A stretch of DNA of 11,056 bases from Ramlibacter sp. Its GTDB lineage: Bacteria > Pseudomonadota > Gammaproteobacteria > Burkholderiales > Burkholderiaceae_C. Position 1 is the first letter of the stretch, and the number at the start of each line of letters is the position of its first letter. The notes under the pieces were generated by a model. It made no database searches. It was given only the letters and a program-made list of their open reading frames with translations, and was not told where the DNA came from. The position numbers were made by a program, and so were the translations under genes. The stretch is taken from assembly GCA_025351615.1 (NCBI GenBank), contig JANXVP010000195.1, forward strand, positions 1 through 11,056. The letters are read 5' to 3'. Positions 184 to 11,056 of the stretch are shown one piece after another.

Positions 184-1029
184 ATGAGCTACGGACCCAA
201 TCCCTGGCAGCAGGCGCACTGGGACTGGCGCGCCGCCGGCAACTTCATCTGCGGCGGTGCCGGCGCGGGCCTGGTGATCTTCACGGTGCTGTCCGGCCTG
301 CAGGGCCTGGCCGCGCCCCTGGCGATCCTGGCCGGTCTTGGGTTGGTCGGCCTGGGCCTGCTGTGCGTGTGGCTGGAGATCGGCCGGCCGCTGCGGGCGC
401 TGAATGTCTTCTTCAACGTCCGCAGCTCGTGGATGTCGCGCGAAGCGCTGGTCTCGGTCTTCCTTTTTGCGCTCGGGCTGGGCCTGGCGGCCGGTGTGAA
501 GTCCTGGGCTGCGCCCGTGGTGATCGCCGCCGTGGTCTTCATCTATTGCCAGGCGCGCATCGTGCAGGCGGCGCGGGGCATCCCTGCCTGGCGCGAACCG
601 CTGACCGTGCCGCTGCTGATGACGACCGGCCTGGCCGAGGGTGCCGGCCTGTTCTGGCTTGCCGCCGCGTGGCAAGGCGCGGGCGGGACGCTGCTCGCTT
701 CAATATTTGCCTTGCTGGTGCTGGGGCGCTGGGTGCTCTGGCGCGCCTGGCGCAGCCGCGTCGCCACGCTCAGCGCGCCGCGTGCGCTGGCCGAGATCGA
801 TCGTGTCGGCCCGGCCTTGCTGTGGATCGGCACCGTGGTGCCTCTGGTCCTGGCTGTGGTGGCTGCGACCGGATTGTTGCCAGCGGCCTGGACTTCAGTG
901 CTGTTGGCTGCTGCGGGTCTTGGCGTTGCCGCGACGGGCGCCTGGTTCAAGTTCACGCTGATCACCCGCGCCGCTTTCAACCAGGGCTTTGCCCTGGCAC
1001 GGCTGCCGGTGCGCGGCGTGCCGCACTGA
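184..1029 (+). CDS. padD: NrfD/DmsC-type membrane anchor, PadD-like
   Basis: This 281-residue integral membrane protein should anchor a molybdenum/iron-sulfur oxidoreductase and pass electrons to or from quinone. About eight hydrophobic helices are visible, roughly at residues 20-40, 43-64, 87-104, 108-128, 139-162, 169-187, 208-229 and 234-252, the usual NrfD/DmsC/PsrC layout. Family-like motifs are the N-terminal GPNPWQQAHWDWRAAGNF, the glycine-rich first helix, and EIGRPLRALNVFFN (about residues 65-78) followed by SSWMSREA. The N-terminal block is what makes me favour the membrane subunit of phenylacetyl-CoA:acceptor oxidoreductase, which oxidises phenylacetyl-CoA to phenylglyoxylate. The substrate could be another aryl-CoA. 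It follows the iron-sulfur gene tail after 82 bases and precedes the ligase by 26. ATG at 184 has only the G-run of the repeat as a ribosome-binding site. Confidence 0.75.
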   Translation: MSYGPNPWQQAHWDWRAAGNFICGGAGAGLVIFTVLSGLQGLAAPLAILAGLGLVGLGLLCVWLEIGRPLRALNVFFNVRSSWMSREALVSVFLFALGLGLAAGVKSWAAPVVIAAVVFIYCQARIVQAARGIPAWREPLTVPLLMTTGLAEGAGLFWLAAAWQGAGGTLLASIFALLVLGRWVLWRAWRSRVATLSAPRALAEIDRVGPALLWIGTVVPLVLAVVAATGLLPAAWTSVLLAAAGLGVAATGAWFKFTLITRAAFNQGFALARLPVRGVPH

Positions 1030-1055: not shown

Positions 1056-2405
1056 ATGGGTGCACTCTCGAGAGCGGAAACCGGGCTTCGCGCCGGACAG
1101 GCCGAACGCAGTTTCCTGCATGCGGAACAGGAGACAATGCCGCGCGAACGGCTGGCGCAGTTGCAGCTCGGGCGGCTGCAGACGACGGTGCGCAATGCCT
1201 TCGACAACGTGCCACTGGTGCGGCAGCGGCTGGAGGCAAAAGGCCTGCAGCCGGCCGACATTGGCAGCCTGGCGGATGTGGCGCTGCTGCCGTTCACGGT
1301 GAAGACCGACCTGCGCGACCAATACCCGTTCGGTCTGTTTGCGCGGCCCTGCGACCAGCTCGCCCGGCTGCATGCTTCGTCGGGGACCACGGGCAAGGCA
1401 ACCGTGGTCGGCTATACAAAAGAGGACCTCGACACCTGGGCGGACCTGATGGCACGCTCGATGTACGCGGCCGGCGCCCGCCGCGGCGATGTCGTCCACA
1501 ACGCTTACGGCTACGGCCTGTTCACCGGCGGCCTGGGAGCGCACTACGGGGCCGAGCGGCTGGGCGCCGTTGTGGTTCCGGTGTCGGGGGGTTCGACCGA
1601 ACGGCAGGTCGGCCTCATCATGGATTTCAAGGCGCGGGTGCTGTGCGCCACGCCCTCGTATGCGCTTGCCATCGCCGAGGTGGCGCAGCAGCAGGGCATC
1701 GACCTGCGCACCGGAGGACTTCGCATCGGCCTATTCGGCGCGGAACCCTGGAGCACGGCGATGCGCCGCGAGATCGAGTCCCGGCTCGGCCTGAAAGCGA
1801 TGGACGTTTACGGCCTGTCGGAGATCATGGGCCCTGGCGTCGCCTGCGAATGCGAATGCCAGGATGGCCTGCACGGGTGGGAGGATCATTTCCTGTTCGA
1901 GGTGATCGACCCTGAAACCGGCCTTGCGCTGCCGGAGGGCGAGGCGGGCGAGCTGGTGATCACCACGCTGACCAAGCAGGCGCTGCCGATGCTGCGTTAC
2001 CGCACGCGGGACATCACGCGCCTGACGACAGCACCTTGCGACTGCGGCCGCACCCATGTGCGGATCCTGCGCATCACCGGGCGCAACGACGACATGCTGA
2101 TCATCCGCGGCGTCAACGTCTATCCCTCGCAGATCGAAGCCGTGCTGGTCGGGCGGCCCAACATCGCACCGCACTACCAGCTGGTGGTCGAGCGGCGCGG
2201 CATCCTGGACATCGTGAGCATCGAGGTCGAGACGGCGCCCGGCACCGATGCCGAACTGTTCGGCGCCATCGCGCGCGATGTCGCGCACCACATCAAGTCG
2301 CGGGTCGGCATCACGACCCAGGTTTCCGTGCTGTCGCCGGGAGCGATTCCCCGCTCGCAGGGCAAAGCCGTGCGGGTGCGCGACCTGCGGCCCAGGGAGG
2401 GGTGA
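1056..2405 (+). CDS. paaK: PaaK-type aryl-CoA ligase (phenylacetate-CoA ligase family)
   Basis: This 449-residue cytoplasmic adenylate-forming enzyme makes an aryl-CoA from the acid, ATP and CoA. Its length fits PaaK (about 430-440). The ATP-binding loop SSGTTGKATVVGYT is at residues 108-121, with Ala115 where PaaK usually has Pro. YGLSEIMGPGV is the A5-type motif, GRNDDMLIIRGVNVYP the hinge block, and PRSQGKAVRVRDLR holds the likely catalytic Lys437. The cysteine pattern CDCGRTH is also typical of PaaK. The frame is open far upstream to 363, but homology begins after ATG 1056, which has AGGA at 1046-1049, and the upstream part overlaps the anchor gene. Between a Pad-like anchor and Hcr genes, the substrate may be phenylacetate, 4-hydroxyphenylacetate or hydroxybenzoate; the sequence does not decide. 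Confidence 0.85.
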   Translation: MGALSRAETGLRAGQAERSFLHAEQETMPRERLAQLQLGRLQTTVRNAFDNVPLVRQRLEAKGLQPADIGSLADVALLPFTVKTDLRDQYPFGLFARPCDQLARLHASSGTTGKATVVGYTKEDLDTWADLMARSMYAAGARRGDVVHNAYGYGLFTGGLGAHYGAERLGAVVVPVSGGSTERQVGLIMDFKARVLCATPSYALAIAEVAQQQGIDLRTGGLRIGLFGAEPWSTAMRREIESRLGLKAMDVYGLSEIMGPGVACECECQDGLHGWEDHFLFEVIDPETGLALPEGEAGELVITTLTKQALPMLRYRTRDITRLTTAPCDCGRTHVRILRITGRNDDMLIIRGVNVYPSQIEAVLVGRPNIAPHYQLVVERRGILDIVSIEVETAPGTDAELFGAIARDVAHHIKSRVGITTQVSVLSPGAIPRSQGKAVRVRDLRPREG

Positions 2406-2406
2406 G

Positions 2407-2877
2407 ATGGCTATGCAATTGCTCAGTCTGGAGGTCAACGGCCGCCCGCACCAGGTCGCGGCTCCGGGCAGCGCGCTGCTGCTGGAAGTGCTGCGCGACC
2501 AGCTCGGCCTCACCGGCACCAAGCAGGGCTGCGACGGCGGAGAATGCGGCGCCTGCACGGTGCTGGTCGACGGCCAGCCGCGGCTGGCTTGCATCACGCT
2601 GGCCGCCAGCGTCGCCGGAAAGCAGATCGAAACCATCGAAGGATTGTCCGAGGCCGGCCGCATGAGCCGCCTGCAGCAGGCGTTTCACGAGCAGTTGGGC
2701 ACGCAGTGCGGCTTTTGCACGCCGGGCATGGTGATGGCCGCCGAGGCGCTGCTGCGGCGCGAGCCCAGGCCGACCGAGCCGCAGATCCGCGAAGCGCTGG
2801 CCGGCAACCTGTGCCGGTGCACCGGCTACGTCAAGATCATCGAGTCGGTGCAGGCAGCCGCCGGAGGGGGGCCATGA
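2407..2877 (+). CDS. hcrC: 4-hydroxybenzoyl-CoA reductase-type small subunit, two [2Fe-2S] clusters
   Basis: This 156-residue small subunit of a xanthine oxidase family enzyme carries electrons between the FAD/iron-sulfur subunit and the molybdenum site. The plant-type [2Fe-2S] ligands are Cys42, Cys47, Cys50 and Cys62 ([12 protein letters not shown], then LAC). The second cluster uses Cys101, Cys104, Cys136 and Cys138 (QCGFCTPGM and NLCRCTGY). All eight are present. Length fits HcrC (about 160). ATG 2407 lies one base after the ligase stop and behind a strong GGGAGGGG ribosome-binding site inside the end of the ligase gene. The stop overlaps the next start by ATGA, so the subunits are probably translationally coupled. 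Small subunits are alike across the family, so the Hcr name comes from the medium subunit. Confidence 0.9.
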
Positions 2878-5234
2878 AGCGCGACCCGCACGCGCTGGAG
2901 CGTCCGCCCGCGCCTCCCACCCATTCGATCGGCAAGCGCACGCCGCTGGTGGACGGGATCGAGAAAGTCACCGGGCGGGCGCGCTATACCGCCGACCTGC
3001 CCATGAGCGAGACCCTGGTCGGCCTGATCGGTCGCAGCCCGGTCGCCCATGCCTTCATCCGCTCGATCGACACCCGCCGTGCGCTCGCGATTCCCGGTGT
3101 CCGCGCCGTGATCACGGGCGAGGAATTCAGCGCGCCGTACGGCGTCATTCCGATCGCGCAGAACGAATGGCCGCTGGCGCGCGGCAAGGTGCGCTACCGC
3201 GGCGAACCGCTGTTCGCCGTAGCCGCCCGCGACGAAGCCGCGGCGCGCGCCGCGCTGGCCGCGGTCGAGGTCGTATTCGATGCGCTGCCGCCCCTTTTCA
3301 GCGCGGCCGAGGCCCGGGCAGAAGGCGCGGTGCTGTTGCACGACAACAGGCCCGGCAACCTGGAGCGACAGGTCGAGCAGGAGTTCGGCGATGTCGAAGC
3401 CGGCTTCGCCAGCGCCGACCTGGTGCTCGAGCGCCGCTATGAATGCGCCGAGGTCGCGCACGGCCAGATCGAACTCAATGCCACGGTGGCGCACTGGGAG
3501 CCCGAGCGCGAGCGCCTGACCGTGCACTCCGTCAGCCAGGTTCCGTACTACCTTCACCTGATGCTGGCGCAGACGCTCGGCATCGACCGCTCGCAGGTGC
3601 GCGTCGTCAAGCCGTTCGTCGGCGGCGGCTTCGGCCACCGCGTCGAGCCGCTCAACTTCGAGATGATCACGGCGGCCCTGGCGCGCGCCGCGGGCGGCAC
3701 CGTGAAGCTGGAGCTGACGCGCGAAGAGGTGTTTCTCACCCATCGCGGCCGGCCCCACACGGAGGTCCGGCTCAAGATCGGCCTGAAGCGCAGCGGCGAG
3801 ATCACGGCGCTGGACGCGGAAGTGACCCAGCGCGGCGGAGCCTATGGTGGCTATGGCCTGGTCACCATCCTGTACGCCGGCGCCTTGCTGCACGCGCTCT
3901 ACAAGGTGGGCGCTGTGCGCTATCGCGGTTACCGGGTCTACACCAACCTGCCGCCTTGCGGCGCGATGCGCGGCCACGGAGCGGTGAACGTGCGCTTCGC
4001 GATCGAGTCGCTGCTCGACGAAATGGCGCCCCGGCTCGGGCTCGACCCGTTCGCGTTGCGCCGTGCCAACCTGATCGAGGTGCCGTACCGCACGCTCAAC
4101 GACCTGCAGGTCAACTCCTACGGCTTGCCGCAATGCCTGGACGCGGTGGAGCGGGCCTCCGGCTGGCACGCGCGCCGCGGCAAGCTGGCGCCGGGGCGCG
4201 GGTTGGGCATGGCCTGCTCGCATTACGTCAGCGGCTCGGCCAAGCCGGTGCACTGGAGCGGCGAGCCGCATGCGGTCATCAACCTGAAGCTCGATTTCGA
4301 CGGCAGCATCACGGTCCTGACCGGTGCCTCCGACATCGGGCAGGGCTCCACGACGCTGCTGACGCAGGTTGTGGCCGAGGTGTTGCTGCTTCCGATGGCA
4401 CGCATCCGCGTCATTTCCGCCGACAGCGCGCTCACCCCCAAGGACAACGGCTCGTATTCCTCGCGCGTCTCGTTCATGGTGGGCAACGCGGCCCTGCGCG
4501 CGGCCGAAAACATGAAACGTGTGCTGGTCACCGCCGCAGCGAAGAAGCTTGAGGCGAGCGCCGACGACATCGAATGGGCCGGTGAATCCTGCTGGGTGAC
4601 CGGCACTGAACGCAAGCTCGATTTCGGGCAGTGCGTGCAGGCGGCGCTGGCCGAGTCCGGCACGCTGACCGTCAAGGGAACCTGGTCGACGCCGCTGGAA
4701 ACGCAGGGCGGCAAGTTCCGTGGCGCGGCCGTCGGTTCGACCGCGGGCTTCAGTTATGCCGCCCAGGTGGTCGAGGTGCAGGTGGATGAAGACACCGGCG
4801 CCGTGCACGTCGAAAAGGTGTGGGTCGCGCATGATTGCGGCCGCGCGCTCAACCCCCTCGCCGTCGAGGGCCAGGTCCAGGGAGCGGTCTGGATGGGCAT
4901 GGGCCAGGCACTCTCGGAGGAAACGCAGTACCACGAGGGCCTCCCGCTGACCTCCAACCTGATCGACTACCGCATCCCGACCATCGCCGAGTCGCCGCCC
5001 ATCGACGTGACGCTGATCGAAAGCATGGACCCGCTGGGACCGTTCGGCGCCAAGGAGGGCAGCGAAGGCGGCCTGCACGGTTTTCCGCCGGCCCTGACCA
5101 GTGCGATCGCCGACGCGCTCGGCCTGCGCCTGAACGCGCTGCCGGTGACGCCGGACCGGGTCTTCGATGCCTTGCAAACGCGCCGGCGTGAACTGCGCCT
5201 GCAGAAGGCGCGCAGCGCGCAGCAGGAGAGCTGA
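2874..5234 (+). CDS. hcrA: 4-hydroxybenzoyl-CoA reductase-type large (molybdopterin) subunit
   Basis: This 786-residue catalytic subunit of the xanthine oxidase family binds molybdopterin cytosine dinucleotide. In the Hcr branch it removes the para-hydroxyl of 4-hydroxybenzoyl-CoA to give benzoyl-CoA, using low-potential electrons. The N-terminal a/b hammerhead segment (residues about 20-140) includes DGIEKVTGRARYTADL. FVGGGFGH (248-255), AMRGHG (364-369) and SDIGQGS, with Gln490, match cofactor-binding segments. Glu731 in GAKEGSEGG aligns with the conserved active-site glutamate. Length is close to known HcrA (about 770). The start overlaps the small-subunit stop by four bases, and the medium subunit begins directly after this stop. 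Function within the family is decided mainly by its partner subunit, so a related aryl-CoA substrate remains possible. Confidence 0.88.
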   Translation: MKRDPHALERPPAPPTHSIGKRTPLVDGIEKVTGRARYTADLPMSETLVGLIGRSPVAHAFIRSIDTRRALAIPGVRAVITGEEFSAPYGVIPIAQNEWPLARGKVRYRGEPLFAVAARDEAAARAALAAVEVVFDALPPLFSAAEARAEGAVLLHDNRPGNLERQVEQEFGDVEAGFASADLVLERRYECAEVAHGQIELNATVAHWEPERERLTVHSVSQVPYYLHLMLAQTLGIDRSQVRVVKPFVGGGFGHRVEPLNFEMITAALARAAGGTVKLELTREEVFLTHRGRPHTEVRLKIGLKRSGEITALDAEVTQRGGAYGGYGLVTILYAGALLHALYKVGAVRYRGYRVYTNLPPCGAMRGHGAVNVRFAIESLLDEMAPRLGLDPFALRRANLIEVPYRTLNDLQVNSYGLPQCLDAVERASGWHARRGKLAPGRGLGMACSHYVSGSAKPVHWSGEPHAVINLKLDFDGSITVLTGASDIGQGSTTLLTQVVAEVLLLPMARIRVISADSALTPKDNGSYSSRVSFMVGNAALRAAENMKRVLVTAAAKKLEASADDIEWAGESCWVTGTERKLDFGQCVQAALAESGTLTVKGTWSTPLETQGGKFRGAAVGSTAGFSYAAQVVEVQVDEDTGAVHVEKVWVAHDCGRALNPLAVEGQVQGAVWMGMGQALSEETQYHEGLPLTSNLIDYRIPTIAESPPIDVTLIESMDPLGPFGAKEGSEGGLHGFPPALTSAIADALGLRLNALPVTPDRVFDALQTRRRELRLQKARSAQQES

Positions 5235-6215
5235 ATGCACGCACTTTCCGATTTCAGCTTGCAACGGCCCTCCAGCCTCGCCGAGGCAGCTGCCATGCTG
5301 GCCGCAGAACCGGCCGCTCGGCTGGTCGCCGGCGGCACCGATCTGCTGCCCAACTTGCGGCGCGGGCTCGAGCGTCCGCCGGTCCTGGTCGACCTGTCGG
5401 GTGTCATCGGTTTCGACCTGGTGCAGGAGGCTGCGGATGGCAGCATCCTGCTGGGTGCCGGGCTGACGCTGGCCGCGCTCATGACCCACGCCACGATCAT
5501 GGCGCGCCTGCCGGCACTGGCTGCAGCGGCCCGCGCCGCCGCCGGCCCTGGCCACCGCAGCGCGGCTACGCTGGGCGGCAACCTGTGCCAGGACACGCGC
5601 TGCGTGTTCTACAACCAGAGCGAGTGGTGGCGCGCCAGCAACGATTACTGCCTGAAGCGCGGCGGTGAGACATGCCATGTGGCGCCTCAGGGTGCGCGCT
5701 GCCATGCGGCGTTCAGCGGCGACCTGTCACCAGTGCTGCTTGTGCTGGGTGCGCAGGTCGAACTGCAAGCCGCCGGCAGCCGGCGGTGGTTGCCGCTGGC
5801 GGGGTTGTACCGCGACGACGGCGCCGCTCACCTGACGCTCGCATCTGGCGAATTGCTGACGCAGGTGTGCCTGCCCGCCGCACCGCCCGGCCAGGTGTGC
5901 GGCTATCGCAAGGCGCGGGTGCGCGGCGCGATTGACTTTCCGCTCGCTGCCGTAGCGATCTCACTGGCGCTGGAGCACGGCCGTGTCGCGTTGCTTGCCA
6001 TCGGGCTGTCGGGCACCAACGCCCATCCGCTGTTGTTGACCGGCACCGGCGACTGCGTGGGCCTTGCGGTGGACGATGCCCTGCTGGCCCGGGTCGCGAA
6101 GCTGGTCCAGCAGCAGGTCAGCCCGATGCGAAGCACGGCCACCCCGTCGAACTACCGCCGCCAGGTGGCCGCCGCGCTCACGCGGCGGCTGCTGCGCGAG
6201 CTGGCCGGCACCTGA
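5235..6215 (+). CDS. hcrB: 4-hydroxybenzoyl-CoA reductase-type medium subunit, FAD plus extra [4Fe-4S]
   Basis: This 326-residue FAD-binding subunit has the CO dehydrogenase flavoprotein fold: VAGGTDLLPNL (31-41) and TLGGNLCQDTRC (112-123) are FAD-loop motifs. After the second motif comes the insertion specific to 4-hydroxybenzoyl-CoA reductase, with FYNQSEWWR and Cys123, Cys139, Cys147 and Cys156. These match, shifted by one, the [4Fe-4S] ligands I recall for Thauera aromatica HcrB (122, 138, 146, 155). That cluster is thought to let electrons flow to the substrate rather than away from it. Aerobic xanthine-dehydrogenase-type medium subunits lack it, so this is the strongest evidence for a dehydroxylating reductase here. 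ATG 5235 abuts the large-subunit stop, with AGGAG at 5224-5228. Confidence 0.92.
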   Translation: MHALSDFSLQRPSSLAEAAAMLAAEPAARLVAGGTDLLPNLRRGLERPPVLVDLSGVIGFDLVQEAADGSILLGAGLTLAALMTHATIMARLPALAAAARAAAGPGHRSAATLGGNLCQDTRCVFYNQSEWWRASNDYCLKRGGETCHVAPQGARCHAAFSGDLSPVLLVLGAQVELQAAGSRRWLPLAGLYRDDGAAHLTLASGELLTQVCLPAAPPGQVCGYRKARVRGAIDFPLAAVAISLALEHGRVALLAIGLSGTNAHPLLLTGTGDCVGLAVDDALLARVAKLVQQQVSPMRSTATPSNYRRQVAAALTRRLLRELAGT

Positions 6216-6251: not shown

Positions 6252-6258
6252 GAGGAGA
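6252..6258 (+). promoter_or_regulatory. Ribosome-binding site that fixes the start of the fusion gene
   Basis: GAGGAGA lies five bases before ATG 6264. An in-frame TTG at 6261 would leave only two bases of spacing, so ATG 6264 is preferred. The 48-base gap after the hcrB stop holds nothing else that I recognise. Confidence 0.7.
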
Positions 6259-6263
6259 CCTTG

Positions 6264-8429
6264 ATGCTGTGTCCGAAATGCCGCGTGTCGCTCGTTGGCG
6301 GGAGCGTGGGCCATTACATCTGCTGCGCGGACGCGCCGGTGCAATGGCAGTGCGGGCGGTGCGGCAAGGTCAGCGAAGGCTTTGCCTTCCCCTACGGCAA
6401 CTGCCCGCGGTGCGGCGGCAAGCTGGCCCTGCGCCAGGAGGACCTGACGGTGGCCACGGACAAGGCTGCGCTCGACGCTGTGCGCATGGCGTTCGAGATC
6501 GAGCTTGGCGGCCGCGCCTTCTATCAGCGCGCCGCCGCGGACAGCGACGACGATGCGTTGCGTGCGCTGTTCGGGCGCTTTGCCGTCATGGAAGGCGAGC
6601 ACATGGAGACGCTCTCGCGGCGCTATCACGTCGAGACGCCCGACCCGTCGCCGGGTTTCAGGGTCGAGCTGGCGGCGGTCTTCGCCGACGTCGACCACCG
6701 GCCGCAGGATCCGGACAACCTGTTCCGCATTGCGATCGCGCTCGAAAAGAGGGCCGCCAGTTTCTTCGCGAAGCGCTCGGCGCAGGCCCCGGCGGGTTCG
6801 GCGGAGCAGCGACTGTACCTCGAGCTCGGCGCCGAGGAGCGGGAGCACGCGGCCATGCTGGCCACCGAATACGAGCGCTGGCGGGCGCTGCAGCCGGGCC
6901 GGTTCAGCAGCGACCCCCTGGCCGATGCCGCCCGCGCCATGCGCGCTGGAACTCTGGCCGAGCCGATCAACGCAGCGGCGCTGCTGCTCGGCGCGGTCGA
7001 CGCCGGGCGCATCGCGCTGGTGTGCGCGGGCCAGCAGATCACGTATGGGGAACTGCGCAACCGCGTTGCCCGCGCGGCCTCGGTCTGGCATGCGCGGGGC
7101 CTGCGTCCCGGCGACCGTGTGGCCGTCAAGCTGCCCGACGGCATCGACTGGGTGGTGTGCTTTCTGGGAACGATCTGGGCCGGCGGCGTGGCCGTCGCGG
7201 TCAACCCGCAGATCCCGGCCGCCGAATGGAGCTACATCCTGGACGAGGCCGGATTCAACGTGATCGTGGCCGAGACCGGCGACGACACGCCTGCGCCCTG
7301 GCGCGATCGCGTGATTTTGGTGGACGAAGGACGGCGCGCCGTTGCCGCCGCCGCGCCGGTCGAGCCGCACTGGGTGGACGACGACACACCGGCTTTCTGG
7401 TGCCACTCGTCAGGGACGTCCGGCAAGCCCAAGGCGGTGGTCCACAAGCACCGTTTCGCCCGTGAGATCGAGCGCGTCTCGCGCGACCGCGTGGGCGTCA
7501 CGCCCGACGATCGCCTGTTCGCCACGTCGCGGCTGTTCTTTTCCTATCCGCAGACCAACAGCCTGTTCGCCGGCCTGAAGATCGGCGCCACCGTCATCCT
7601 GGATCCGCAATGGCCGACTGCGGCCTCGGCGGCCGCGACCGTGGAACAGTCGCGACCGACCGTTTTCTTCAGCGTGCCATCGCTGTACCGCAACCTGCTG
7701 CACGAGGGCCTGGCGCCGGCGCTCGCCGCCGCGGGAGTCAGGCTCTGCGTGTCCGCCGGCGAGGTTTTGCCGGCCAGTCTGCGCCAGGCCTGGCGGGAGG
7801 CGACGGGCATCGGCATGATCGACGGTTACGGTGCCTCCGAAACGCTGGTCCTGGTGCTCACATCGCTGGACACCGACGACGGCCTGCAGCCGTCGCCGGG
7901 CGTCGATGTCCGACCGCTCGATCCGCAGGCGGCAGCGGCCGGCATCCCGACGCGTCTGTGCATCCAGGTGTCGACTCTCGCCCTGGGCTATCTCGACCGC
8001 CCGACGGCGCAGGCGGAAAGCTTCCGCGAAGGCGCGTTTTGCCCGGCCGACCTGTTCCTGCGCACCCCTGGCGGCGGCTGGCGTTTTGCCGGGCGCGAGG
8101 ACTCGCTGGTGAAGATCAAGGGCCGCTGGGTGAACCTGGTGGAGCTTGAGGAGAAGCTGGCGGCGGGAACGCCGGGCCTGCTGGAAGCTGCATTGGTCTG
8201 CGTGCCCGATCCTGACGGGGTCGATTCGGTCATCCTGTTTTACGTCGCGCAGACCGGCGAACGCGGGCGGGTCGAGGACTGGTTGCTGGAACGCGCCGCG
8301 GCGCTGCCTCGCTACCAGCGCCCGCGCGCCTTGCACGCGCTCACCGCGCTCCCGCGCACGGCCACCGGCAAGCTGCTGCGCAGGCGCCTGGCTGAAATGC
8401 TGACGTTGCCGGTCGAGGATCCGTCATGA
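6264..8429 (+). CDS. Fusion: reverse-rubrerythrin module + benzoate-type CoA ligase
   Basis: This 721-residue protein has two halves. Residues 1-54 are cysteine-rich: C3/C6, C20/C21, then a rubredoxin-like C30xxC33...C47xxC50. Residues about 67-207 form a ferritin-like four-helix domain with the diiron pattern E80, E110xxH113, E161, E192xxH195. Rubredoxin before four-helix is the order of reverse rubrerythrins, which reduce peroxide or oxygen. From about 235 to the end is an adenylate-forming ligase of the benzoate/4-hydroxybenzoate-CoA ligase type: SSGTSGKPK (382-390), YGASE (522-526), GREDSLVK (610-617) and TGK with catalytic Lys703. Both halves look intact and in one frame, without a stop or frameshift. 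It follows hcrB by 48 bases. The aromatic acid substrate is unknown. The role of the iron domain is inferred: protecting an oxygen-sensitive pathway, sensing oxygen, or a redox reaction on the substrate. Confidence 0.85.
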   Translation: MLCPKCRVSLVGGSVGHYICCADAPVQWQCGRCGKVSEGFAFPYGNCPRCGGKLALRQEDLTVATDKAALDAVRMAFEIELGGRAFYQRAAADSDDDALRALFGRFAVMEGEHMETLSRRYHVETPDPSPGFRVELAAVFADVDHRPQDPDNLFRIAIALEKRAASFFAKRSAQAPAGSAEQRLYLELGAEEREHAAMLATEYERWRALQPGRFSSDPLADAARAMRAGTLAEPINAAALLLGAVDAGRIALVCAGQQITYGELRNRVARAASVWHARGLRPGDRVAVKLPDGIDWVVCFLGTIWAGGVAVAVNPQIPAAEWSYILDEAGFNVIVAETGDDTPAPWRDRVILVDEGRRAVAAAAPVEPHWVDDDTPAFWCHSSGTSGKPKAVVHKHRFAREIERVSRDRVGVTPDDRLFATSRLFFSYPQTNSLFAGLKIGATVILDPQWPTAASAAATVEQSRPTVFFSVPSLYRNLLHEGLAPALAAAGVRLCVSAGEVLPASLRQAWREATGIGMIDGYGASETLVLVLTSLDTDDGLQPSPGVDVRPLDPQAAAAGIPTRLCIQVSTLALGYLDRPTAQAESFREGAFCPADLFLRTPGGGWRFAGREDSLVKIKGRWVNLVELEEKLAAGTPGLLEAALVCVPDPDGVDSVILFYVAQTGERGRVEDWLLERAAALPRYQRPRALHALTALPRTATGKLLRRRLAEMLTLPVEDPS

Positions 8430-8488
8430 ACCGCTGGGCGGTCCCAAGAGCGAATGCCGCAGCGCGTCGCGCGGAAGTTGGCCAATGA
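8426..8488 (+). other. 20-codon open frame bridging two genes, possible coupling peptide
   Basis: A short frame begins at ATG 8426, overlapping the fusion-gene stop by ATGA, and ends at TGA 8486-8488, overlapping the next gene's ATG 8485, again by ATGA. The predicted peptide is basic and alanine-rich and resembles no family I know. I see no strong ribosome-binding site of its own, so it would be translated by re-initiation after the ligase and would deliver ribosomes to the hydratase start. It may equally be chance, since two four-base overlaps are not rare in GC-rich DNA. Confidence 0.3.
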
Positions 8489-9270
8489 GCGCGATCCTGG
8501 CGCAGCCCCTGGTGCACCAGGCGCGCCACGGCGCCGTGCTGACGCTCACGATGGCGCGCGCGCCGGTCAACGCACTCGACGAGCCCCTGGTCGAAGCACT
8601 GGAAGCGGCACTGGAGACGGGCTGCCAGGACAGCGGGATCACGGTGCTGCACCTGCGCAGCGGCTGCCGCGCGTTCTGCGCCGGCGCCGACCTGGCGTTG
8701 CTGGCGCAAAGCATCGCTACGTCGCAGGGGCTGGATCAAATGCTGGCGCTGGTCGCGCGGCTGCAGCGGCTGGCGGCGCGGCTGGAAGCGGCGCCGCTGG
8801 TGACGCTGGCGGAGATCGGCGGCGCGGCGCTGGGCGGCGGCTTCGAGCTGGCGCTGGCATGCGACCTGCGCATTGCGGCCCATGAGGCCACGCTGGGACT
8901 GCCCGAAGCGGGGCTCGGCCTGCTGGCGTCCGCTGGCGGCACCCAGCGTCTCACCCGCCTGGTGGGACCGGGCATCGCCAAGCGCCTGATCCTGGGCGCC
9001 GAAACGCTCGACGGCGTGTCCGCCGAGCGGCTCGGCCTGGTGCAATGGACGGTCCCGCGCGCGCGTCTGGCCGAGGCTGCGCGCGCAGTGGCCGAGCGCA
9101 TCGCTGCGTTGCCGCGGCAAGCGCTGGGCGCGGCCAAGCAATGCATCGCCGCTGCGCTCGACGACGCGCGCGACGGCTTCGCCGAAGAGATCGCGCACAC
9201 CCGGCGCCTGTACCAGCAGGGCCCGACGCGCGATCGCGTCGCGGCTTTCCTCGCGCCCCGCGCGCGCTGA
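8485..9270 (+). CDS. Enoyl-CoA hydratase/isomerase (crotonase) family protein
   Basis: This 261-residue crotonase-fold enzyme should act in the cytoplasm on an unsaturated acyl-CoA. Both catalytic glutamates of true hydratases are present: Glu121 in ALGGGFEL and Glu141 in GLPEAGLGL, spaced by 20 as in rat enoyl-CoA hydratase (144 and 164). The oxyanion-hole segments FCAGADL (64-70) and GGG (117-119) are intact, and SAGGTQRL follows at 149-156. Hydratase activity is therefore more likely than a pure isomerase. Next to a BadH-like dehydrogenase, a BadK-like role is attractive: adding water to cyclohex-1-ene-carboxyl-CoA or a related ring CoA. That rests on context. ATG 8485 has GGAAG at 8473-8477; 36 bases separate the stop from the next gene. 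Confidence 0.85.
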   Translation: MSAILAQPLVHQARHGAVLTLTMARAPVNALDEPLVEALEAALETGCQDSGITVLHLRSGCRAFCAGADLALLAQSIATSQGLDQMLALVARLQRLAARLEAAPLVTLAEIGGAALGGGFELALACDLRIAAHEATLGLPEAGLGLLASAGGTQRLTRLVGPGIAKRLILGAETLDGVSAERLGLVQWTVPRARLAEAARAVAERIAALPRQALGAAKQCIAAALDDARDGFAEEIAHTRRLYQQGPTRDRVAAFLAPRAR

Positions 9271-9306: not shown

Positions 9307-10053
9307 ATGAAACTGGATAACCGCACCGCGCTCGTCACTGGAGCCGCCTCCGGCATCGGCCGTGCGACCGCACAGGCCATGGCAGATGCCGGCGCCCGGG
9401 TGCTGCTGGCGGACATCGACGAGGCCAACGGGGCCGAGGCCGCCGCCCAGCTGCGGGGTGGGGGCCACAAGGCCGACTACCTCAAAGTGGACCTGACCAA
9501 TCCGGAATCGATCGCCGCGGTTGCGGCGCGGGTGCTGCAGGGCTTTGGCCCGCCCGACATCATTGTCAACGGCGCGGGCTGGGGCATGACGCATCCGTTC
9601 TGGGAGGGCACGCCCGAACTGTGGGCCAAGCTGGTCGCGTTGAACTTCGTCGGACCGATGCAGCTGGTGAAGGCGCTCCTGCCGGCGATGCTCGAGCGCG
9701 GCAGCGGCAGGATCGTCAACATCGCGAGCGATGCCGGCCGCGTCGGCAGCCTGGGCGAGACGGTGTACTCCGGAGCCAAGGGCGGGCTGATCGCCTTCAC
9801 CAAGTCGCTGGCCCGTGAAACGGCTCGCCGCGGCATCACGGCCAACTGCGTCTGCCCTGGCCCGACCGAGACACCGCTGTTGTTCGCCGTGCCGGACAAG
9901 CACCTGGAAGCCTTCAAGAAAGCGATCCCGATGCGCCGCTTCGCCCAGCCCTCGGAAGTGGCCGACGCCATCCTGTTTTTTGCCAGCGACCGCGCCGCCT
10001 ACGTCACGGGGCAGGTGCTCAGTGTCAGCGGCGGGCTGACCATGGCCGGTTGA
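9307..10053 (+). CDS. badH: BadH-like short-chain dehydrogenase (2-hydroxycyclohexanecarboxyl-CoA dehydrogenase type)
   Basis: This 248-residue classical short-chain dehydrogenase has the nucleotide loop TGAASGIG at 11-18, Asp36 after the second strand (NAD preference), Asn113, Ser141, Tyr154 and Lys158 (YSGAK). NGAG at 88-91 replaces the usual NNAG. Several long segments (IVNIASDAGRVGSLGE, VCPGPTETPLL, TGQVLSVSGGLTM) strongly recall Rhodopseudomonas BadH, which oxidises 2-hydroxycyclohexanecarboxyl-CoA to the 2-keto ester in alicyclic-ring and benzoyl-CoA degradation. The hydratase just upstream supplies the preceding step in that scheme. FabG-like 3-hydroxyacyl-CoA dehydrogenases are the main alternative. 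ATG 9307 has GGAGA at 9296-9300. The gene probably ends the catabolic operon, as the next genes are of another type after 70 bases. Confidence 0.8.
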   Translation: MKLDNRTALVTGAASGIGRATAQAMADAGARVLLADIDEANGAEAAAQLRGGGHKADYLKVDLTNPESIAAVAARVLQGFGPPDIIVNGAGWGMTHPFWEGTPELWAKLVALNFVGPMQLVKALLPAMLERGSGRIVNIASDAGRVGSLGETVYSGAKGGLIAFTKSLARETARRGITANCVCPGPTETPLLFAVPDKHLEAFKKAIPMRRFAQPSEVADAILFFASDRAAYVTGQVLSVSGGLTMAG

Positions 10054-10123: not shown

Positions 10124-10381
10124 ATGACAGCCGCACCCAAAGCCCGGCAATGGCTTGAACCGGCCGAAGCGCACATCGACGTGCGCGGGCTGATGCCGCC
10201 GCAGCCGCTGGTGTCTATCCTGCGACTGCTGGCATCGGTCGACCATGGCACGACCGTGGTCGCGCATCTCGAGCGCGACCCCGTCATGCTGTATCCGGAA
10301 CTGGCGCAGATCGGCTGGCGCGCCGAAATCGTCCCCGGCGATCCCGGCGAAGTCAGGCTGCGACTGCGGAGGGCCGGGTGA
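10124..10381 (+). CDS. Small DUF2249 protein
   Basis: This 85-residue soluble protein matches the DUF2249 pattern: IDVRGLMPPQPLVSILRLLA near the N-terminus, then DPVMLYPELAQIGWRAEIV and a basic C-terminal strand. The family has a TusA-like two-layer fold. Its members are often found near nitrogen-oxide reduction, hemerythrin or heme-copper oxidase-like genes, but the biochemical role is not established. It has no cysteine in the DVRG region, so TusA-type sulfur transfer is unlikely. ATG 10124 is the only ATG, GTG or TTG after the in-frame stop at 10067, yet it lacks a clear ribosome-binding site. A nine-codon frame at 10098-10127 ends across it by ATGA. Its own stop overlaps the next gene's GTG start by four bases (GTGA). 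Confidence 0.75.
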   Translation: MTAAPKARQWLEPAEAHIDVRGLMPPQPLVSILRLLASVDHGTTVVAHLERDPVMLYPELAQIGWRAEIVPGDPGEVRLRLRRAG

Positions 10382-11056
10382 GCGGTGCCGGCGCTTTCCT
10401 CGGCGGCGCCAGAAGCCGGCTGCTGCCGGCTTCGATTCCGCTGCGCTTCTTCGGCGCGGCCACCGTGTTCCATCTGTTCGCATGGCTCGCCCTGGGCGCT
10501 GGCGCGCAGGTGTGGCCGCACGCGCCCGCGGCGCTGGGTTGGCCCCTGGCCGCGCTGCACCTGGTGACTCTGGGTGTCCTGGGCATGACCGCAATGGGCG
10601 CCGGCGCGCAGCTGCTGCCGGTGGCGACGCGGCAGCCGGCCCCTGGCCATCGGCTGCTGGCCGCGCTCTGGTGGCTGTACACGGCGGGTGTCGCCGTCCT
10701 GGCTCTTGGCATGGGCCTGGCGCGCCCGCCGCTGCTGGCCGTGGGCGCGGTCGCAGTTGCATTGGCATTGACCTCCTGGGCGGCGCTGATGGCGCGCAAC
10801 CTGCGCGGCGCGCGCGGCATGCCTGGCGTGGTGGCGCATGGCTGGGCGGCGCTGACGTCGCTGGGGGTCGTGCTGGGCAGCGCGCTTGTTCTGGCAGGCG
10901 CTTTGCCGGGCCTCACGGCGCCCCTGCACGAGATCACTCTGGCGCTGCACCTGGTGTTCGCGCCCTTCGGTTTCATGGGCATGCTGCTGCTGGGCCTGTC
11001 GTACATCCTGGTGCCTATGTTCGCGCTGGCCGACGTTCCGGGCGAACGCGCCCAAC
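10378..11056 (+). CDS. Polytopic NnrS/heme-copper-oxidase-like membrane protein, 3' partial
   Basis: The frame starts at GTG 10378, overlapping the DUF2249 stop, and is still open at the right edge (226 codons visible). The protein has repeated hydrophobic helices, roughly at residues 22-42, 55-78, 94-113, 117-137, 152-174 and 186-216. Histidines lie at the ends of or within helices: His32, His61 (LHLVTLGVLGM), His154 (VVAHGWAAL), His184 and His191 (ALHLVFAPFGFMGM). The pattern H-x2-TLG-x8-GAGAQLLPV resembles NnrS and related heme-copper oxidase subunit I-like membrane proteins linked with NO or denitrification physiology. Overlap with the DUF2249 gene indicates one translational unit. GTG is chosen because of the overlap and because hydrophobic sequence begins soon after. 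The rest, including any metal-binding sites, lies outside the window. Confidence 0.65.
   Translation, partial: MSGAGAFLGGARSRLLPASIPLRFFGAATVFHLFAWLALGAGAQVWPHAPAALGWPLAALHLVTLGVLGMTAMGAGAQLLPVATRQPAPGHRLLAALWWLYTAGVAVLALGMGLARPPLLAVGAVAVALALTSWAALMARNLRGARGMPGVVAHGWAALTSLGVVLGSALVLAGALPGLTAPLHEITLALHLVFAPFGFMGMLLLGLSYILVPMFALADVPGERAQ

Follow-up and report, generated by a model that had tools for sequence, protein, structure and literature searches.

Why would a bacterium join a diiron domain, of a kind associated with the removal of oxygen and peroxide, to the enzyme that activates an aromatic acid? The question is raised by one gene in a stretch of 11,056 nucleotides from Ramlibacter sp. 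(contig JANXVP010000195.1 of assembly GCA_025351615.1), hereafter the window, which is contig C131 of a genome in 583 contigs and 91.1% complete. The gene encodes a rubredoxin-like and diiron module followed by an aryl-coenzyme A (CoA) ligase, and this fusion is genuine, is maintained across one bacterial group and unites known domains in a way that is new, conserved and linked to a pathway. The function proposed here, to which an even chance is given, is that of an aryl-CoA ligase with a built-in NAD(P)H-fed O2/H2O2 reductase, which would shield oxygen-labile reductases in facultative anaerobes. Very oxygen-sensitive aromatic reductases operate in facultative denitrifiers at sites where oxygen fluctuates, and the shielding of these enzymes has, to our knowledge, been little studied. 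The question is testable, as there are a defence-type diiron module in the entry enzyme, a probable flavoprotein donor and named carriers of the fusion, such as Ramlibacter lithotrophicus RBP-1, R. monticola KACC 19175 and R. alkalitolerans KACC 19305. The parts of the gene are as follows.

6264..8429, + strand: fused gene, diiron/rubredoxin-like module plus aryl-CoA ligase, 721 amino acids (aa) and stop
6252..6258, + strand: likely ribosome-binding site gaggaga before ATG 6264, read from the sequence
6264..6899, + strand: entire module (residues 1-212), a homologue of the ferritin domain at the C-terminus of NfnAB-type flavoproteins (NF009413)
6270..6326, + strand: first cysteine set, C3xxC6 and C20C21, a putative metal knot (sequence)
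6345..6419, + strand: rubredoxin-like knot, C30xxC33-x13-C47xxC50 (motif)
6477..6869, + strand: four-helix diiron (rubrerythrin/ferritin-like) domain, ligands E80, E110, H113, E161, E192 and H195
7002..7994, + strand: AMP-binding domain of the CoA ligase, residues 247-577, including HSSGTSGKPK at 7404-7433
8151..8372, + strand: AMP-binding C-terminal domain with Lys703 at 8370-8372 (Pfam)

A conserved fusion of a diiron module and an aryl-CoA ligase

The initial annotation of the window had described a single uninterrupted frame with a rubredoxin-like cysteine module, a four-helix domain and a complete adenylating enzyme, and each of these elements was borne out. E80, E110xxH113, E161, E192xxH195 and K703 are all where they had been placed, the rubredoxin-like cysteines form CxxC-x13-CxxC at C30/C33/C47/C50, and both ligase domains exceed their Pfam cut-offs (AMP-binding, residues 247-577, 208.2 bits against 29.9; AMP-binding_C, residues 630-703, 26.9 bits against 24.5). 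With the P-loop motif and Lys703, presumably the catalytic lysine of the family, they identify an aryl-CoA ligase of the ANL superfamily, in whose members both the P-loop and the catalytic lysine have recognized roles. A second cysteine set, C3xxC6 with C20C21, was absent from that description; the module (residues 1-212) thus carries eight cysteines, C3, C6, C20, C21, C30, C33, C47 and C50, and the M-x-C-P-x-C start at ATG 6264 is also seen in most relatives among the aligned proteins. The rubredoxin-like knot weakly matches the rubredoxin part of rubrerythrin 1b71 (E 0.058). The Pfam Rubrerythrin family (PF02915, cut-off 22.8 bits) scores 21.5 bits at residues 72-202 in the whole protein, rising to 24.6 bits when residues 1-212 are scanned alone.

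Two ways in which the fusion might have proved spurious had been named, a sequencing error that joins two genes and homologues that are always separate, and both fail. With the front module as query and candidates restricted to 0.55-1.75 times the query length, AMP-binding was also carried by 120 of the 120 listed matches (of 912). Among 116 aligned proteins, namely those of at least 690 aa among 121 with the window protein included, E110, H113, E161, E192, H195 and K703 are invariant and E80 is present in 115. An assembly artefact joining two genes is ruled out by these matches and by the conserved ligands. When the ligase part served as query, the module, whole or in part, was found in 112 of the 120 listed matches, and the view that homologues are always separate is rejected for the ligase clade, although 24 ligase-free module copies do exist. 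Five of the other eight matches are apparently cut (P0123 and P0139 start in the last residues of the module, P0134 and P0138 begin inside the ligase without a start, and P0154 lies on a 1.5-kb contig). The remaining three, P0164, P0169 and P0171, come from longer contigs (80-113 kb); they may lack the fusion or may be misannotated or frameshifted. Comparison of the window with five relatives gave ratios of nonsynonymous to synonymous change (pN/pS) of 0.21-0.37 in the module and 0.23-0.40 in the ligase, so that both halves look to be under purifying selection.

The module is uncommon, being present in 10 of 250 genomes of the window's family. A scan of named genomes, evaluated for the best 80 of 234 confirmed places (in 79 loci), gave 56 ligase fusions and 24 ligase-free module copies. 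Both scan patterns lie in the front module and are hence blind to unfused members of the ligase clade, a bias checked by the ligase-query search and by a search of same-genus genomes, in which the best unfused match stood at 45% identity. In a quick ligase tree, which carries long-branch warnings, all 55 fused rows fall on one side of a branch (SH-aLRT, an approximate likelihood-ratio test, 99) opposite 19 unfused rows. Given the caution that sampling demands, a single fusion event would be the simplest reading. A scan of viral contigs for relatives of the fusion found none.

Some individual records call for comment. Two Ramlibacter metagenome-assembled genomes (MAGs) contain a second, diverged copy of the fusion (L040:18922-21479 and L074:2910-5188), located after a TRAP-transporter protein gene and before DUF2249 and NnrS-like genes, the latter recognized by eye. 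An Anaerolineales MAG (L043) has a fusion that hardly differs from the one in an Aquabacterium MAG, and a locus of betaproteobacterial type occurs in a Chitinophaga MAG (L094); both are probably contaminating contigs. In four same-genus genomes, a stretch of 213-246 aa behind hcrB (L127:12840-13600, L129:13230-13900, L135:13700-14500 and L136:9050-9720) is open in all four, resembles the N-terminal part of the ligase only, has no diiron module and shows, by eye, a degenerate P-loop. It is a shortened ligase remnant, possibly repurposed.

Kinship of the module with an NfnAB-type flavoprotein

The front module was traced to the 'ferritin domain' of NfnAB-type flavoproteins, NCBIfam NF009413 (E 3.5e-84; residues 3-213, with numbering in the model match one higher). 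Proteins of this family, also known as PRK12775 'trifunctional' proteins, consist of two NfnAB-like flavoprotein halves and a C-terminal ferritin domain, and it is only this domain that the window protein shares, its score of 283.3 bits against the full-length model falling short of the cut-off of 1895. All eight cysteines and six ligands are common to both. The arrangement differs in that the module follows the flavoprotein there and precedes a CoA ligase here, with the flavoprotein separate upstream or absent. The ferritin domain, 'putative' by its database name, thereby gains a second context.

The name reverse rubrerythrin, used in the initial annotation, fits in part. As judged on domain order and motifs, the module has the rubredoxin-like knot first and the diiron four-helix domain second, which is also the order in Clostridioides difficile revRbr1/2 as given in PMC7482061. 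By sequence, however, it is a ferritin domain of NF009413 type rather than a demonstrated reverse rubrerythrin. It has an extra N-terminal cysteine set, no Glu164 and an enzyme fused behind it, and among solved structures it matches 2fzf, 2oh3 and 1vjx better than rubrerythrins.

The genomic linkage agrees with this kinship. Gene calls in these genomes are crude, and neighbours were counted from tblastn mapping under identity thresholds. Each of the 24 ligase-free copies follows NfnAB, 14 in one open frame (for example in Anaeromyxobacter, Telmatospirillum and Thiocystis), 6 as separate genes and 4 in a manner left unresolved by the gene calls; where the module gene is separate, it encodes 211-230 aa. 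For the 56 fusions, the nearest mapped gene within 1.3 kb upstream is NfnAB in 23, HcrB in 18 and a TRAP-transporter protein gene in 2; another 8 have no member of this trio in that interval, and a contig edge intervenes in 5. In 12 of the 23 NfnAB-linked fusions, HcrB, a subunit of 4-hydroxybenzoyl-CoA reductase, lies upstream of NfnAB. The upstream gene in relatives has both halves of NfnAB (NADH-dependent ferredoxin:NADP+ oxidoreductase) in one chain, as the fused forms do. In the module tree, several inner branches of which are weak, NfnAB-linked and NfnAB-less fusions are intermixed, which fits repeated loss of NfnAB, and the rows closest to the window are NfnAB-linked Ramlibacter.

Conservation was followed in an alignment of 76 rows, comprising the 80 module copies minus L030, L032, L051, L071 and L073 (short or with a stop) plus the window. 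Each of the 76 rows has all six diiron ligands, and the four rubredoxin-like cysteines are likewise kept throughout; L051, left out of the alignment, has none of these cysteines. The eight cysteines and six ligands are common to all 24 ligase-free copies, and the first cysteine set is complete in 23/23 NfnAB-linked fusions as well as in 24/24 ligase-free copies.

A second conserved home of the module lies beside a ferredoxin enzyme. The loci L085, L091, L094, L101, L103 and L106 combine NfnAB and the diiron module with pyruvate:ferredoxin oxidoreductase and a gene recognized by eye as dihydroorotate-dehydrogenase-like, some with a ferredoxin as well. Pyruvate:ferredoxin oxidoreductase, an oxygen-labile enzyme, occurs in 6 of 21 ligase-free loci.

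The combination of module and ligase has already been met by automatic annotation; one database name reads, for instance, 'acyl-coenzyme A synthetase/AMP-(fatty) acid ligase/rubrerythrin'. Among the papers listed by full-text searches, judged mostly by title and the start of the abstract, none appeared to describe the fusion. Rubrerythrin is unmentioned in a review of aryl-CoA ligases (PMC8388817) and in an Aromatoleum multi-omics paper (PMC9765128), and a review of NfnAB (PMC6405883), with no mention of ferritin or rubredoxin, seems not to treat the diiron form.

Gene setting and probable substrate

The fused gene stands in an operon-like series of genes on the forward strand.

184..1029, + strand: DmsC-like membrane anchor, which we take to be PadD (PF04976)
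1056..2405, + strand: PaaK-like CoA ligase (TIGR02155, 593.4 bits, cut-off 646.3)
2407..2877, + strand: 4-hydroxybenzoyl-CoA reductase gamma, HcrC (TIGR03193, 256.2 bits, cut-off 257.8, 1.6 bits under)
2877..5234, + strand: 4-hydroxybenzoyl-CoA reductase alpha, HcrA (TIGR03194, 1158 bits, cut-off 994.55)
5235..6215, + strand: 4-hydroxybenzoyl-CoA reductase beta, HcrB (TIGR03195, 408.6 bits, cut-off 404.55), ending 48 bases before the fusion
8485..9270, + strand: enoyl-CoA hydratase-family gene (PF00378)
9307..10053, + strand: short-chain dehydrogenase (PF13561)

In relatives, the DmsC-like anchor sits behind genes for a molybdopterin enzyme and an Fe-S protein. The surroundings recur in 27 well-flanked fused loci, each with at least 7 kb on both sides: within 9 kb of the fusion, HcrB was mapped in 21, the hydratase in 20, the dehydrogenase in 20, PaaK in 15 and NfnAB in 11, and diiron-type neighbours were also met, with a short rubrerythrin in 12 and hemerythrin in 10. 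At the same identity thresholds, 21 ligase-free loci showed none of the fused-locus neighbours (HcrB 0/21) except NfnAB. At the end of the window (10124-11056), a DUF2249 gene and an open reading frame with no Pfam match are found, with a hemerythrin gene next in many relatives, forming a recurring trio.

At the genome level, PF06050, the family of benzoyl-CoA reductase B and C, is present in 7/7 same-genus fused genomes and 2/14 unfused ones, and HcrB over cut-off in 7/7 and 0/14 (Fisher 3e-4 and 9e-6, uncorrected for kinship and choice of genomes, the 14 having been hand-chosen, non-randomly, from 30 same-genus genomes without the fusion, and relatives being non-independent). Over 16 module-bearing genomes, PF06050 was found in 14 and HcrB over cut-off in 13; G258 is slightly under the HcrB cut-off, and G177, in which the module lies beside NfnAB and pyruvate:ferredoxin oxidoreductase with no ligase seen, has neither PF06050 nor HcrB over cut-off. 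BoxB exceeds its cut-off in 27 of 30 genomes. On contig C434 of the window genome lies what looks like a bcrCBAD-ferredoxin set (subunit names by the author's reading), and the boxB contig, C94, carries a benzoate-type ligase that is unfused and has no diiron module. Thus, in the same genome, a plain ligase lies by aerobic genes and the diiron-bearing one by reductive genes.

The ligase part had been called benzoate-type in the initial annotation, and its best solved relatives are indeed the benzoate-CoA ligases 2v7b and 4eat, but the curated benzoate-CoA-ligase model TIGR02262 is missed (255.4 bits, cut-off 375.25). The best curated model is the 3-hydroxybenzoate-CoA ligase HbdA (NF053567), at 315.8 bits against a cut-off of 1000. 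Falling below both cut-offs, forming its own clade among the compared rows and bearing a diiron front module, the fusion differs from the benzoate-, 3-hydroxybenzoate- and 4-hydroxybenzoate-CoA ligases to which these matches relate it.

Judged from sequence kinship and setting, the substrate is probably a hydroxybenzoate. After the fusion, five loci (L039, L054, L056, L063 and L093) carry a phenylphosphate-carboxylase-beta-like gene accompanied by CBS and PEP (phosphoenolpyruvate)-utiliser genes; the copy in L039 reaches 990.8 bits against a cut-off of 469, and the other four were recognized by similarity to it. Neither PaaK nor HcrCAB was mapped within the available stretch of L063 and L093. 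According to PMC6114531, the phenylphosphate carboxylase pathway yields 4-hydroxybenzoate, which is then activated by a CoA ligase. These carboxylase-like neighbours, together with the two loci in which PaaK and HcrCAB were not mapped, favour 4-hydroxybenzoate as the substrate.

Proposed function and competing explanations

The fusion, its conservation, the metal ligands, the kinship and linkage with NfnAB and the gene setting are apparent from the sequences themselves. From them we infer a substrate, an electron path, a catalytic activity and a benefit of the fusion. The back two thirds of the protein would adenylate an aromatic acid, most likely hydroxybenzoate, and make the CoA thioester, and this aryl-CoA product would be passed to 4-hydroxybenzoyl-CoA reductase and, after it, to benzoyl-CoA reductase. 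The front third would be an electron-accepting diiron peroxidase or O2 reductase, in which electrons from NAD(P)H would pass through the NfnAB-type flavoprotein, where present, to the rubredoxin-like iron and on to the diiron site, which would reduce H2O2 or O2 to water. In this way, facultative aerobes that encounter traces of O2 would maintain their oxygen-labile reductases and ferredoxin pool in working order, and the fusion would fix the ratio and place of both functions.

Because of the cysteines, the ligands and the NAD(P)H-type flavoprotein gene adjacent in many relatives, the same chemistry as in reverse rubrerythrins is most likely. As described in PMC7482061, reverse rubrerythrins support NADH-linked reduction of H2O2 and O2 via partner proteins, and C. 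difficile without both of them has a growth defect above 0.1% O2. Protection of the reductases by the module is plausible from the gene setting. Candidate reasons for the fusion are local protection with fixed stoichiometry, a redox gate and mere co-expression. The initial annotation had suggested that O2 or peroxide removal could be tied to substrate activation just ahead of an oxygen-labile reductase. The position behind 4-hydroxybenzoyl-CoA reductase genes and the apparent benzoyl-CoA reductase set of the same genome fit this, and a candidate donor, NfnAB, exists in relatives, but the window's own genome has no close counterpart of it.

A number of observations weigh against a shield fed by NfnAB. 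The window genome contains no close NfnAB, the best match having 34% identity, and 18 of 56 fusions stand directly behind HcrB. Among 13 genomes in which the fusion is intact, NfnAB at 70% identity or more occurs in just five (G003, G023, G157, G252 and G263); in G023 it adjoins a separate module gene, not the fusion, in G263 it is in pieces with one internal stop, and G026, listed as 100% complete, has no NfnAB at E<=1e-70. The first cysteine set is damaged or gone in 6 of 25 NfnAB-less fusions (L037, L067, L069, L073, L079 and L051). The headless L051 (4146-7061; the same as L114, G032:C17) is one 971-aa frame of hcrB, diiron helices and ligase, in a single MAG record; with its whole cysteine head missing, the rubredoxin step cannot exist there. 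Between NfnAB-less pairs, the module pN/pS is 0.39-0.63, and in the two pairs with both parts computed it is 0.44 and 0.63 against 0.31 and 0.46 for the ligase; modules of these lineages may evolve faster. Position 164 is Ala in 76/76 rows. Canonical rubrerythrins have an extra helix-C Glu, three residues past the helix-C ligand, and this residue is therefore missing here, which sets the module apart from them.

The pathway link has exceptions of the same bearing. G160 has the fusion with no PF06050, BoxB or HcrB over cut-off, and PF06050 also matches in control E. coli, so that this family alone is suggestive and no proof of benzoyl-CoA reductase. The window operon holds two ligases, the fusion and the PaaK-like one. 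In Thauera, as PMC8388817 states, the 4-hydroxybenzoate ligase is of 48 kDa and a 60-kDa 3-hydroxybenzoate ligase accepts both isomers. Because of the former size, the PaaK-like neighbour remains a competing 4-hydroxybenzoate ligase.

In the NfnAB-less lineages, the rubredoxin cysteines and the diiron ligands are retained in all 24 aligned rows. Taken with the losses in the first cysteine set, this suggests that the head serves NfnAB and decays in its absence while the diiron helices are kept, an after-the-fact observation on sequences. The head losses and the joined frame of L051 count on both sides of the argument for the proposed function. The retention of the ligands, extending to the helices of headless L051, also speaks for an oxygen or redox gate, in which the module would sense O2, peroxide or its own electron load and switch the ligase; with poisoned reductases downstream, aryl-CoA formation would then cease and CoA would not be tied up. 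Fusion to the activating step of the pathway would suit such a role. The idea of oxygen sensing had been raised in the initial annotation and found no support in the sequence analysis. With module relatives that belong to an electron-transfer protein and to no known sensor family, the gate appears unlikely. A form that joins both ideas, with NfnAB and the fusion as one complex burning NAD(P)H to clear O2 or peroxide at pathway entry and the diiron state setting ligase activity, is more speculative still; if true, substrate entry would be gated by local oxygen, through an oxygen-checked CoA ligase.

Another rival to the NAD(P)H-fed shield is a passive fusion, whereby genes of an nfnAB-module-ligase operon lost a stop codon and gained co-expression with no functional coupling. 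The module is a separate gene beside nfnAB in relatives, which makes read-through into a downstream ligase easy; there is one ligase clade, and the hcrB-module-ligase frame of L051 shows that such joins go on. Yet the junction is retained in nearly all of the listed ligase matches, with most of the exceptions looking cut, and both halves are kept in the second copies (L040 and L074) and away from mapped hcr or nfnAB genes (L033 and L037); this explanation is accordingly regarded as improbable. An electron conduit, by which the module would pass NfnAB electrons to 4-hydroxybenzoyl-CoA reductase while the ligase positions the substrate and oxygen chemistry is secondary, agrees with the gene order hcrCAB-nfnAB-fusion in 12 loci and with the single record of a direct join between hcrB and the module. 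It is nevertheless very unlikely, since a full carboxylate/His diiron ligand set would be needless, NfnAB is missing in many loci that keep hcr, and the head is missing exactly where hcrB is joined.

The fusions located away from mapped hcr genes are those of L033, L037 and L113 (R. monticola and R. alkalitolerans). In R. alkalitolerans, the genes around the fusion, judged by eye, include two-component regulators as well as cytochrome- and copper-protein-like genes resembling those of nitrite respiration.

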